This document shows, piece by piece, positions 40,698 through 45,309 of a DNA stretch of 64,000 nucleotides. The stretch is from Candidatus Aminicenantota bacterium. GTDB taxonomy: Bacteria; Acidobacteriota; Aminicenantia; Aminicenantales; UBA8522. A program made the translations under genes and the position numbers. The DNA lies in NCBI GenBank assembly GCA_017886205.1, contig JAFNEO010000043.1, positions 1-64,000 on the forward strand, read 5' to 3'. Under the pieces are notes generated by a model, which was given only the letters and a program-made list of their open reading frames with translations, was not told the DNA's origin and searched no databases. Within the stretch, counting starts at the first letter, position 1; the number at the start of each line of letters is the position of its first letter.

Positions 40698-42335
40698 ATG
40701 GAAAAAAGACTGATCCTGGCTATCGTCCTTTCTTTCCTGGTCCTGGCGCTCTACCAGATGGTCTTCCTGAAAAAAAAGCCCCAAACGGAGCCGCTGGACC
40801 AGACGCAGGTCCCGGTCCAGGCGGCAGTTTCTGAACCTAAGCCCGCCGAATCGCCGGCCCCGCCGGAGACCCCTCCGGCAGCGGCGCAGGCCTATGAGGA
40901 AGCCAAAGCCCAGGCGGAGGCTCAAGTCCTCGTCGACACATCGCTCTACCAGGCCGTCTGGAGCAATCGGGGGGCATCACTCCGGAGCTGGAAGCTGAAG
41001 ACGCACCTGGACGAGAACAAGGACGGGCTGGAGCTCGTTTCCCGGGGCGCGGCCGAGGTCGCGAAGTTCCCATTTTTCCTGGAGACCCAGGACGCCGAGC
41101 TGGACAAAACGGCCAACGGGGGCCTGTTCCTTCCCTCGGTCGCCCGCCTCGACCTCAGAGACGGCCAGACGGGAGAGCTCAAATTCTACTATTCCGATGG
41201 GAATAGTGTAAAAATAGAGAAAGCCTTTATTTTCACCGGTGGCGCCTACGACTTCGATGTCCGGATCAGCGTCTGGAAGGACGGCCGCAAGGTCGAGCCC
41301 CGGGTCATCTGGGGTCCGGGGATCGGCAATCCGGTCGTCACCTCAAAGAGGCAGCAGTTCGGCGTCGGGAGCGGCGTGGCCGTCCTCGCGGCCAACCGAG
41401 TGTACCGGGTCAACGATAGAAAATACAGGCCCGAAGCCAGCGCTTTCAACTTTGCCAACTGGGCCGCCTATGAAGATAATTACATGGCCGCCCTCTTCAT
41501 CACCCCGCCACAGCAGGGAACGGCCCAATTCCTGAGAGTGCCCAGAGACGAAAGGATCGCGGATTTCTTTCTCTCCGTGAGCGTCCCGCAAAAGGCCTAT
41601 ATCGGGCCAAAGGACTTCGATCGGCTTCGCGCCTTCGGTCACGAGGCCAAGAAGATTATCAATTTCGGCTTTTTCGGGTCGATCGCCGAGATCCTTCTCA
41701 TCTCGATCAAGTTTATCCATCGATATATCCCCAACTGGGGTTTTGCCATCATCATCCTGACCTTCCTCATCAAAATCGTTTTCTTCCCGCTGACCTACAG
41801 CAGCACCAAGTCGATGGCCAAGATGCAGGAACTTCAACCGAAGATCAAAGCTCTCCGGGCCAAATACAAGAAGGCCAAGCAGGACATCAACCAGCGCCGC
41901 CAGATGAACGAGGAGATGATGAAGCTCTACAAGGAGCATGGCATCAACCCGGCCGGGGGATGCCTGCCCATGCTGGTCCAGATCCCCGTCTTCTGGGGGT
42001 TTTTCCGGATGGTGGTGGTGGCCATGGAATTTCGGCAGAGCCCGTTTATCCTCTGGATCAAGGACCTGTCCGTACACGATCCCTATTATGTGACACCGAT
42101 CTTGATGGGCGCCACCCAGTTCATCAGTCAGAAGATGATGCCGACGTCGGCCGACCCCTCCACGTCCAGGATGATGCTCATCATGCCCGTCGTGATGACC
42201 GTCTTCTTCATGAATTTCCAGAGCGGCCTGGTCCTCTACTGGCTGACCAACAATTGCCTCCAGATCGGCCAGCAGTACATCATGAACCGGATGATGGCCA
42301 AGCAAAAGAGAGAATCTCATGGAAAACGAAAATAG
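40698..42335 (+). CDS. yidC: Membrane protein insertase YidC
   Basis: The start at 40698 follows AAGAGG and gives an N-terminal span KRLILAIVLSFLVLALYQ. The 545-residue protein has the Gram-negative form: a Pro/Ala-rich linker (about 30-80), a large periplasmic P1 domain (about 85-330) and the conserved membrane core (WGFAIIILTFLIKIVFFPLTY, MKLYKEHGINPAGGCLPMLVQIP, then YWLTNNCLQIGQQ). YidC inserts membrane proteins alone or with Sec. Its last 17 bases overlap jag. Confidence 0.97.
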   Translation: MEKRLILAIVLSFLVLALYQMVFLKKKPQTEPLDQTQVPVQAAVSEPKPAESPAPPETPPAAAQAYEEAKAQAEAQVLVDTSLYQAVWSNRGASLRSWKLKTHLDENKDGLELVSRGAAEVAKFPFFLETQDAELDKTANGGLFLPSVARLDLRDGQTGELKFYYSDGNSVKIEKAFIFTGGAYDFDVRISVWKDGRKVEPRVIWGPGIGNPVVTSKRQQFGVGSGVAVLAANRVYRVNDRKYRPEASAFNFANWAAYEDNYMAALFITPPQQGTAQFLRVPRDERIADFFLSVSVPQKAYIGPKDFDRLRAFGHEAKKIINFGFFGSIAEILLISIKFIHRYIPNWGFAIIILTFLIKIVFFPLTYSSTKSMAKMQELQPKIKALRAKYKKAKQDINQRRQMNEEMMKLYKEHGINPAGGCLPMLVQIPVFWGFFRMVVVAMEFRQSPFILWIKDLSVHDPYYVTPILMGATQFISQKMMPTSADPSTSRMMLIMPVVMTVFFMNFQSGLVLYWLTNNCLQIGQQYIMNRMMAKQKRESHGKRK

Positions 42336-42942
42336 TGAGCCGATCCAGGAATTCAAGGGCAAGAACCTAGACGAGGCCTTGGGGCACGCCGAGCATGTGC
42401 TCAAGATACCCCGGGAAAAGTTCACCTACGAGATCGTCACCGAGAAGACCAAGCTATTCGGGATGCGGGGCAAGGAAATCGTCATCCGGGCCTGGCCGAA
42501 GAAGGAGGTCGACACGAATCCCGTCAGCGGCTTCCTGGACACGCTCCTCCCCTCTTTTCCCCTGGAATTGACGTATGAGATCAAGAAGAAGAACGAGACC
42601 ATCTATGTGATCTTTGACGGCGAGGACAAGAGCCTGCTCCTCCGCAAGGATGGTTCCCTGCTCCTGGCTTTTCAACACATCCTCAGCAAGGTATCTCCCC
42701 ACAAGGTCCAGGTGGACTGCGAATTTTACAGGCGGAGGAAGGAAAAGCAGCTGCGGGAATACGCCCAACAGATTGCCCATCAGGTCAGCGAGACGGGGAG
42801 AGATGAGGTCCTCGACCTGATGAACCCCTACGAAAGGCGGATCGTCCACATCGCCGTCAACCAGGTCCCCGGGATCACCAGCGAGAGCCTCGGCGAGGGC
42901 TTCTTAAAGAGGGTCAAAGTTTTTCCGATCGGCAAATCTTAG
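42319..42942 (+). CDS. jag: RNA-binding protein Jag/KhpB
   Basis: The 207-residue protein has a Jag N-terminal domain (EFKGKNLDEALGHAEHVLKIP, about 12-65), a KH domain (about 85-145, LLLRKDGSLLLAFQHILSK) and an R3H domain (about 145-207, MNPYERRIVHIAVNQVPGITSES). It begins inside yidC, and ends nine bases before the convergent kinase-like gene. Confidence 0.93.
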   Translation: MENENSEPIQEFKGKNLDEALGHAEHVLKIPREKFTYEIVTEKTKLFGMRGKEIVIRAWPKKEVDTNPVSGFLDTLLPSFPLELTYEIKKKNETIYVIFDGEDKSLLLRKDGSLLLAFQHILSKVSPHKVQVDCEFYRRRKEKQLREYAQQIAHQVSETGRDEVLDLMNPYERRIVHIAVNQVPGITSESLGEGFLKRVKVFPIGKS

Positions 42943-42950
42943 CCAGAGGC

Positions 42951-43808
42951 TCAATAGAGGACGGCGGACTCTCCCTTCTCGGCGATCAGCTTCTGGAAGC
43001 GGGCTGCGATCAGGTCCCGTCGGGCCATCAAGGCTTCGATTTCCCATTTGGTCAAATGATCTCCGACGGCGTGCGAGATGACATCCTTCGATAGCCCAAG
43101 GAGCCTGGAAAAGAGCCCTTTCTCGCACTTGAGCAGTTCTTTTTCTTCCGGAAGCTGGCGGAGCGTCCGGAAGGCGCGCGAGAAATCGATGATCCAGATC
43201 TTCCAATCCTCCGTGATCAAGACGTTCTGGAGGTTTCGGTCGGTGTCATAGATGAGTTGAGAGAAGATACGAACCGAGTGCATCTGTCTGTTCCAGGCGT
43301 GGGTATCGGGAGGAGGGATGCCCTGCTTCACGCGCTCGTCCTCGTCCATCTTCACATCGTCGACCCACCAGCTCAAAGACCCCTTTTTCCCCTCCCATTC
43401 TCGTTCCACGGTGATGGGCACCATATCGTCGACCTCGAGCAGCACGGCGAGCTCATAGGCCGCGATGTTGTAATGGAAGGAGTCGGCGAAGTTCAGCTCC
43501 CTCCCGCCTCCGGCGAAGCCGGCCTCTTGTGTGCGCACGTCTATGTCCTGGAACGAGGCGTCGTGAGTGAGGCCTCCGGCCGAGAGGGTCAGCCGCCAGG
43601 GATGAGTCAGCCCCTTCCCGATCTTTTCGCTCTTGACCACCTTGGCCGTGAGGAGGAACCGACACACCTCATCTTTGGACAAGAGAGAAGACTGCTCCTG
43701 TCCGGGAAGCCGGAGCGGGATGAACAGGAAGTGGGCACCGGCCAGGAACACAATGAGCTGTAGGACATGCAGTAACGCCGAGTGTTTCCTCAACAGTTTT
43801 ATCTTCAT
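42951..43808 (-). CDS. Exported or membrane-anchored kinase-like protein
   Basis: ATG 43808 is chosen: a promoter lies just upstream and a hydrophobic signal/anchor (about residues 12-31) follows. An ORF extension to 43970 has no signal. The 285-residue protein has features of the PI3/4-kinase and HipA-like fold: FHYNIAAYELAVLLEVDDMVP (helix C-like), YDTDRNLQNVLI (residues 187-197, catalytic-loop-like) and IWIIDFSRAF (205-213, metal-binding Asp). A substrate cannot be named. It is convergent to jag and divergent from mnmE. Confidence 0.7.
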   Translation of the reverse strand: MKIKLLRKHSALLHVLQLIVFLAGAHFLFIPLRLPGQEQSSLLSKDEVCRFLLTAKVVKSEKIGKGLTHPWRLTLSAGGLTHDASFQDIDVRTQEAGFAGGGRELNFADSFHYNIAAYELAVLLEVDDMVPITVEREWEGKKGSLSWWVDDVKMDEDERVKQGIPPPDTHAWNRQMHSVRIFSQLIYDTDRNLQNVLITEDWKIWIIDFSRAFRTLRQLPEEKELLKCEKGLFSRLLGLSKDVISHAVGDHLTKWEIEALMARRDLIAARFQKLIAEKGESAVLY

Positions 43809-43938: not shown

Positions 43939-45309
43939 ATGTTGGACGAGACGATCATCGCGATTTCCACTCCGCCGGGATACGGGGGCCTGGGGATTGT
44001 CCGCTTGAGCGGTCGAAAGGCCCTCCGGATCGCCAGGAAAATCTTTCGTCTGAGGCGAAAAACATGGCGGGAAGTCGAGCCCAGGGCACTCGTCCTGGGC
44101 GAGATCTACGACGGCGAGAAAAAGGGGTTGATCGATGAGGCCTTTCTGGCCTATTTTCCCGCGCCGCGCTCTTATACCAGGGAGGACCTCGTCGAGATCA
44201 GCTGCCACGGCAGTCCGGTGGTGCTGGAGGAAGTCGTCCGCCTGGGAACCAAGGCTGGGGCCCGGGTCGCCCATCCGGGCGAGTTCACGCTCCGGGCCTA
44301 TCTTCACGGGCGGGTCGATCTCATCCAGGCTGAAGCCGTCAATGACCTGATTGCGGCCACCTCGCTGGCCCAGGCCAGGATCTCCCTTGGTCAGATCCGG
44401 GGCGGGCTCTCGCGGCATATCGGCGCTCTGCGCGACCAGATCGTCGAGCTGATGTCCCTGGTTGAAGGCGCAATCGAATTTACCGACGACGGGCTGGGGA
44501 TCAGCCCCAAGGAAACCACGGGCAGGCTCGAAACGGCGCTCCGGACGGTCCAAAAATTGATTTCGAGCTACCGGGCGGGACGGGCCATGACCGAAGGGCT
44601 CGAACTGGCCATCGTGGGCCGGGCGAACGTCGGCAAGTCCACGCTCTTTAATGCGCTGCTCGACCAGGAAAGGGCGATCGTCAGCCCATATCCCGGGACT
44701 ACCCGTGACTATCTCCGGGAGACGATCAAGATTAAGGACTCATTCTTTCATCTGATCGACATGGCCGGCCTGGAGGACTCGCCCCATCCCGTGGAAAAGG
44801 AGGGTGTCAAGAGGGGCGGAGAGCTGGCTTCCCAGGCGGATGGAATCCTTCTTGTCCTGGATGCGTCCAGGCGGGAGACTCTGGCCGACTTGAGGCTGGT
44901 TGATAGGTTCAAGCCTAAGAAAACGATCCTTCTGTTCAACAAGTCCGACCTTCCTCGCAAAATCGACCAACCGAAGTGCCTGGCGCTGAACAGAAAAACC
45001 CGTTGGCTCGAGGTTTCGGCCCTGATCGGGAAAAACCTGGAGGCCTTGCGGAACGCGATCTATGATGACTTCGCCCTGAGGCAGGACGGAAATGATGAAG
45101 TACTGCTCCACCTGAGGCAGAAGCTGCTGTTCGAACAAGTTGCCTCCTGCCTGGAAAAAGCCTTAAGCCTGCTTCGAGACGGGTATTCGGAAGAGGTCTG
45201 GGCTGAGGAAATCCGCCGAATTTTGCCCTTGATCGGGCAGTTGACGGGGGAGATTCGCGTCGACGAGGTCATTGACAACATTTTCTCCCGTTTTTGTGTG
45301 GGAAAATGA
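43939..45309 (+). CDS. mnmE: tRNA uridine-5-carboxymethylaminomethyl synthesis GTPase MnmE
   Basis: With MnmG it modifies wobble uridine 34 in several tRNAs. The 456-residue protein has the tetrahydrofolate-binding N-domain ([21 protein letters not shown]), then G1 GRANVGKS at 227-234, G2/G3 TTRDYLRE and DMAGLED, G4 NKSD, and the C-terminal CVGK motif with its key Cys. It overlaps mnmG (ATGA). Confidence 0.97.

Follow-up and report, generated by a model that had tools for sequence, protein, structure and literature searches.

Acidobacteriota carry a hitherto uncharacterised family of exported FAM20-like kinase-fold proteins that co-occurs almost completely with TLC-type transporters, and a variant of this family is encoded at 42951–43808 of the window, the stretch of 64,000 nucleotides from a Candidatus Aminicenantota genome that was analysed as a whole. 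We put at about even the chance that these components form a system of exported kinases served by a dedicated nucleotide exchanger, in which the window gene would represent a branch with a variant active site. How exported bacterial kinases are supplied with ATP is an open problem in the field, and the near-complete co-occurrence of kinase and transporter across the phylum provides a concrete, testable answer. The family also places FAM20-type kinases, together with related pseudokinases, in bacteria; FAM20 is described as an animal family in the available text of earlier reports (PMC7948968, PMC9758233), and a literature search that was thin on subscription journals found no account of exported FAM20-like kinases from bacteria paired with TLC transporters.

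The open reading frame is a real gene. It runs on the minus strand from an ATG at 43808 to a stop at 42951 and yields a product of 285 aa; the frame is also open upstream of this ATG as far as 43970, into mnmE, while a Shine-Dalgarno-like GGCGG precedes the ATG and orthologue L007 starts with an ATG at the identical place. Two other Candidatus Aminicenantes genomes each have an orthologue flanked by jag and mnmE, with 76% and 69–70% identity, and both orthologues keep every catalytic residue; dN/dS between the window gene and the two is ~0.16 (0.153/0.956) and ~0.15 (0.217/1.480). Because the orthologues keep the catalytic residues and the position between jag and mnmE, with low dN/dS, the motif pattern lies beyond chance. 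A sequence-only reading of the window had placed the gene divergent from mnmE and had described a signal or anchor segment followed by two kinase-like motifs, and the features collected in Table 1 agree with it on both points.

Table 1. Coordinates of the window gene, its neighbours and the principal sites of its product.
Feature	Position in window	Strand	Basis
Exported FAM20-like kinase-fold protein, variant (Gln-Asn) branch, 285 aa	42951..43808	-	ORF and family comparison
Residues 1-36, positive n-region followed by a hydrophobic core (signal peptide or anchor)	43701..43808	-	Sequence; family-wide hydropathy
Gln87, aligned with the ion-pair Lys (human FAM20C K285)	43548..43550	-	Family alignment, profile match; FAM20C numbering from PMC4421793 (available text)
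Asp109, likely site of FAM20C E306 (Asp in FAM20B)	43482..43484	-	Ungapped alignment
Asn114, aligned with the ion-pair Glu (human FAM20C E311)	43467..43469	-	Family alignment, profile match; FAM20C numbering from PMC4421793 (available text)
Catalytic loop YDTDRNLQNVLI with D190 and N195, residues 187-198	43215..43250	-	Sequence and family alignment
Metal-binding loop IWIIDFSRAF with D208, residues 204-213	43170..43199	-	Sequence and family alignment
jag/khpB, context only, convergent neighbour	42319..42942	+	
mnmE, context only, divergent neighbour	43939..45309	+	

The resemblance to PI3/4-kinase, HipA and FAM20-like folds suggested by the sequence-only reading is well supported by profile searches. 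Against the PDB, a 32-member phylum-wide profile (A4) matched FAM20A (7.3e-11), FAM20C (4.8e-7), FAM20B (3.3e-6), C. elegans Fam20 (1.4e-5) and PI4K2A (0.006), and FAM20A was also found with the profile of a 30-member alignment (4.8e-6), but only at 0.0027 with that of the window branch alone. The window protein by itself gave no FAM20 match and nothing significant against the PDB, no Pfam family at 0.1, and weak matches only in NCBIfam. Among the latter, TIGR03843 (the SCO1664 family of actinobacteria, classed by NCBI as a hypothetical equivalog) matches 30/30 family and 18/18 branch members below its curated cut-off, the window protein scoring 20.1 bits against a cut-off of 172.4. Pfam Fam20C matches 16/30 family and 1/18 branch members, PI3_PI4_kinase 16/30 and 8/18, and HipA_2, weakly, 23/30 and 6/18. 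Structure prediction with AlphaFold from a three-sequence input reached a pLDDT of 40.7, too low for a usable model. Assignment of the window protein to the FAM20/PI4K2/HipA branch of the protein-kinase-like superfamily is well supported by these profile matches.

Like FAM20A/B/C, the bacterial family combines predicted export with a predicted kinase fold, the profile match spanning the C-helix and C-lobe, and has in common with them the catalytic and metal Asp, probably an acidic residue near the C-helix, related pseudokinases and what would be a need for ATP in a non-cytosolic compartment. Unlike FAM20, it is bacterial, its genes show linkage to TLC-transporter and phosphatase genes, its window branch has Gln-Asn for the ion pair, and its catalytic loop contains an Asn, which is also found in PI4K2 and HipA. 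FAM20 proteins have conserved disulfide cysteines, whereas Cys is absent among the invariant or nearly invariant columns of the family and branch alignments. With PI4K type II and other PI3/PI4 kinases, which are cytoplasmic lipid kinases, the family shares a motif order of D-R-x-x-x-N followed by D after a short hairpin, although these matches are far weaker than those to FAM20. Three other assignments were rejected. CotH spore-coat and exported kinases belong to the same superfamily and likewise act as exported or surface enzymes, but the window protein has no PF08757 match and its genome none at 1e-5; a HipA toxin is disfavoured by the lack of a HipA match for the window protein and by neighbours that are jag and mnmE rather than a HipB antitoxin; and a defence-system role found no PADLOC match.

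Within the active site, D190 and D208 are the counterparts of the FAM20 catalytic and metal-binding Asp (D458, D478) and are present in 18/18 branch members; the earlier numbering was correct for Asp208, while its Asp189 and Asn194 fall one short of the true positions, D190 and N195. FAM20's Lys-Glu ion pair (K285–E311 in human FAM20C, according to the available text of PMC4421793) is absent, with Q87 in 18/18 branch members and position 114 occupied by N in 16, S in 1 and D in 1; in the window protein a neutral pair stands in for the two charged residues that usually grip ATP. The profile alignment sets position 87 against the FAM20A Lys and position 114 against the FAM20A Glu, and the spacing between the two sites in the FAM20A alignment is 26, the same as from K285 to E311 of human FAM20C. 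A plain active kinase, as originally proposed, is therefore not borne out as stated for a branch that lacks this pair. Asp109, which ungapped alignment puts at the likely E306 site, is found in 18/18 branch members; a gapped alignment to FAM20A, with a two-residue gap, places the E306 site differently. That acidic residue is an Asp in the FAM20B-like Hydra Fam20 (PMC5865150, available text), and within FAM20 the loss of one acidic residue near the ion pair gives rise to a pseudokinase (PMC4421793, available text).

The family is held by 80/396 sampled Acidobacteriota genomes in a phylum search with the 30-member alignment, and a class search found relatives in 69/142 genomes of the class. The window's own genome has five paralogues at E 2e-24 or better, and a scan of a genome collection with the window protein returned two close relatives; outside Acidobacteriota the search also covered viral contigs, where 26 pattern matches contained no relative, and a plasmid collection, which gave no match. 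Positions 87 and 114 together read K-E in 96 of the 131 family sequences, Q-N in 16, K-D, K-G, R-E and R-D in 4 each, and R-G, Q-S and Q-D in 1 each. The Asp residues singled out by the sequence-only reading are widely conserved: a five-residue tally of the family alignment gives D208 in 131/131 and D190 in 99/131, with D190 losses confined to a separate pseudokinase clade save for one sequence with a small deletion at the site. The catalytic-loop Asn at position 195 is replaced by Gln in 15/131 members, all of which have D190 and D208.

All 18 Q87 sequences, the window's included, are invariant for D190, N195, D208, H82, E104, D109 and W147. In a tree of 92/131 sequences, built without columns 87 and 114 and pruned of non-Q87 members with ≥72% identity to a retained sequence, a branch with support 98 separates them from all the rest. 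Their sources are the window's genus, another family of its order (G084) and six families from other parts of the phylum (f18, f34, f37, f38, f42, f61). Given these invariant residues and a single broad clade, the Q87 branch is old and constrained rather than a decaying copy. The pseudokinase clade comprises 22/92 rows with support 100 and keeps Lys or Arg at 87 as well as D208, with the catalytic loop lost; five of the sequences assigned to it have lost Asp190 while keeping Arg191, three of which fall inside the clade in the tree.

Export was judged by hydropathy and charge. The window protein begins MKIKLLRKH..., a positive n-region, and continues with a hydrophobic stretch to about residue 33. 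A simple hydropathy test finds an upstream hydrophobic segment in 112/114 judged family members, the two weak ones including a start-truncated call, with 17 further members with long upstream ORFs left unjudged, and in many relatives A-x-A-like ends precede QF (ARAQF, VFAQF). These N-terminal segments with their positive n-region support the exported protein that the sequence-only reading described. Its alternative, in which the hydrophobic segment serves as an anchor and the domain stays in the cytoplasm, is very improbable, as the strong positive charge before the segment and the little charge after it predict an N-in/C-out orientation, and these classic ends precede the domain in many relatives.

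The direct neighbours of the window gene are jag and mnmE, with no transporter or phosphatase adjoining, and a comparison of 23 regions for its branch in other classes found no neighbour type common to more than 3 of them. Elsewhere in Aminicenantia, family kinases lie in a conserved cluster consisting of an exported metallophosphatase with its own N-terminal hydrophobic segment, a pseudokinase paralogue, a TLC-domain transporter of ~430–500 aa, an SdiA-regulated-like gene, one to three kinases, an RsbW-like HATPase and a STAS gene, behind which stand genes for one or two long TLC proteins that are HEAT-fused where tested. Pseudokinase paralogue and phosphatase sequence are joined in one ORF in 9/34 regions. 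Around the 84 kinase genes of these 34 regions, which were chosen around kinases and are mostly clusters, a phosphatase lies within 5 kb in 76 cases, an RsbW-like gene in 72, TLC in 66, an SdiA-like gene in 40 and STAS in 25. In other classes (20 regions, 23 kinase genes), TLC is near 1 kinase gene and phosphatase near 4, corresponding to 1/20 and 3/20 regions. Since a metallophosphatase adjoins a family kinase in three regions outside Aminicenantia (L110:7726-8889, L116:8134-9450 and L123:6628-7815), the association of kinase and phosphatase extends beyond the class.

At the level of whole genomes, with TLC presence defined as a PF03219 match above its cut-off, TLC is found in 68/142 genomes of the class and 102/396 of the phylum. 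In the phylum, 76 genomes have kinase and TLC, 4 kinase only, 26 TLC only and 290 neither; in the class the corresponding numbers are 64, 5, 4 and 69 (142 genomes), and outside the class TLC is present in 58/62 kinase genomes. Fisher values for such counts ignore relatedness, for which only the tests within a genus and a family partly correct: genus g30, taken as 19 consecutive genomes (G063–G081) with the genus label given for part of them, has 6 with both, 0 with kinase only, 1 with TLC only and 12 with neither, and family f37 (15 genomes) has 8, 0, 3 and 4. Outside the class, a TLC gene lies ≤6 kb from a kinase in at least 12 genomes (G217, G222, G244, G247, G324, G330, G349, G370, G372, G390, G421 and G440), where rough arithmetic gives a chance expectation of <1 genome. 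CotH, present in 52/396 genomes, served as a control. Over all genomes it is weakly associated with TLC (20/52 with CotH vs 82/344 without), but the association is gone once the kinase is taken into account, kinase-free genomes having TLC in 2/34 with CotH vs 24/282 without.

NTT/TLC ATP-ADP exchangers have their established roles in ATP import by parasites and plastids, and both the TLC domain and the HEAT fusion known from NTT-HEAT proteins are present beside the kinase clusters. The homologues found here are remote from the characterised exchangers, so that nucleotides are only their putative substrate; the short 455-aa ones match Pfam at 2e-9 to 1e-11 with no NCBIfam match, and the others match TIGR00769 at 2e-9 to 1e-20, well short of its cut-off. 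In the available text of PMC5381601, experiment is said to cover a small fraction of NTT diversity, NTT-HEAT proteins are described as common in free-living bacteria with roles unknown, and no supply of exported kinases is described.

In the system we propose, a family kinase would be exported to the periplasm or outer face by its N-terminal signal and would there, outside the cytoplasm, use ATP for transfer to a substrate that is secreted or belongs to the envelope. The exported metallophosphatase would reverse this phosphorylation, and the linked pseudokinase could regulate the kinase, much as FAM20A does FAM20C. A TLC/NTT-type exchanger would swap cytoplasmic ATP for the ADP made by the kinase; with high internal ATP it would release ATP and take back ADP, as an exported kinase needs. 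The window branch would operate with an altered nucleotide grip, Lys-Glu having become Gln-Asn, with the catalytic Asp, the Asn and the metal Asp unchanged, and its gene could be partnered by exchangers encoded elsewhere in the genome. A bolder form of this proposal we regard as tentative and less likely than not: that Acidobacteriota possess a dedicated extracytoplasmic phosphorylation system made up of exported FAM20-like kinases, an exported phosphatase and a pseudokinase regulator and powered by the ATP/ADP exchanger as ATP exporter, and that the window branch, with Gln-Asn and an invariant His82, is a second kind of exported kinase with another ATP grip, another phosphate donor or another transfer such as AMPylation.

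The pairing of kinase and transporter might instead reflect a common lifestyle, the transporter importing or sensing nucleotides rather than feeding the kinase. TLC without kinase in 26/396 genomes, the position of most kinases outside Aminicenantia away from a TLC gene, and the wide occurrence of NTT-HEAT proteins without known role in free-living bacteria (PMC5381601, available text) are compatible with this; the Aminicenantia gene clusters, the pairs within 6 kb in at least 12 further genomes, the joint absence of both genes within one genus and the lack of a TLC link for CotH, another exported kinase family, make it fairly improbable. The system might also target envelope sugars or lipids rather than proteins, in the manner of the FAM20B xylose kinase, Kdo kinase or PI4K2. 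A Kdo kinase model matches 16/18 branch members (best 2.1e-5), PI3_PI4_kinase matches 8/18, and the branch has Asp at the likely E306 site, as does FAM20B-like Hydra Fam20 (PMC5865150, available text). Against this, the window protein matches the Kdo kinase model over its catalytic core only (residues 179–213), and the closest PDB matches include the protein kinase FAM20C besides FAM20A and FAM20B, leaving sugar or lipid targets less likely than not.

For the window branch itself, the main rival to an active enzyme is a pseudokinase with poor or differently posed nucleotide binding that acts as activator or scaffold of other exported kinases. FAM20A provides the precedent with FAM20C (PMC4421793, PMC5413348, available text), the Q87/N114 replacement of the ion pair holds throughout the branch, Lys-Glu paralogues are present in the same genome, and a second, independent pseudokinase clade exists within the family. 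Yet catalytic Asp, Asn and metal Asp are invariant in 18/18 members, and in three genomes of other classes (G317, G252 and G303) a branch member is the sole family match found, one in each, which therefore have no active family partner left to regulate; we consider the pseudokinase a minority prospect. Because the catalytic residues are invariant, an active enzyme is favoured, and the window protein most likely remains an active enzyme that binds a metal-nucleotide, although it would grip the nucleotide in an altered way. The Gln-Asn branch offers a natural experiment on the extent to which a kinase can exchange its nucleotide grip and yet keep its catalytic machinery.

Several further observations concern individual clusters. 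Beside one kinase cluster, two long TLC/MFS-HEAT proteins stand in tandem behind a STAS gene (L048:1528-6925), so that transporter-like genes are paired, for no evident reason, with one of anti-sigma type. On contig C53 of the genome that contains the window, the TLC gene between a kinase and a pseudokinase looks broken, with only short pieces in different frames left (L045:12236-12852), and two other TLC matches with long open frames are found elsewhere. A second phosphatase-pseudokinase unit, on C12, is split into two ORFs as if frameshifted (L047:7900-9809), and on C40 the paralogue L004 lies near genes judged by eye to be phage tape-measure-like and integrase-like (L046:2483-9361).
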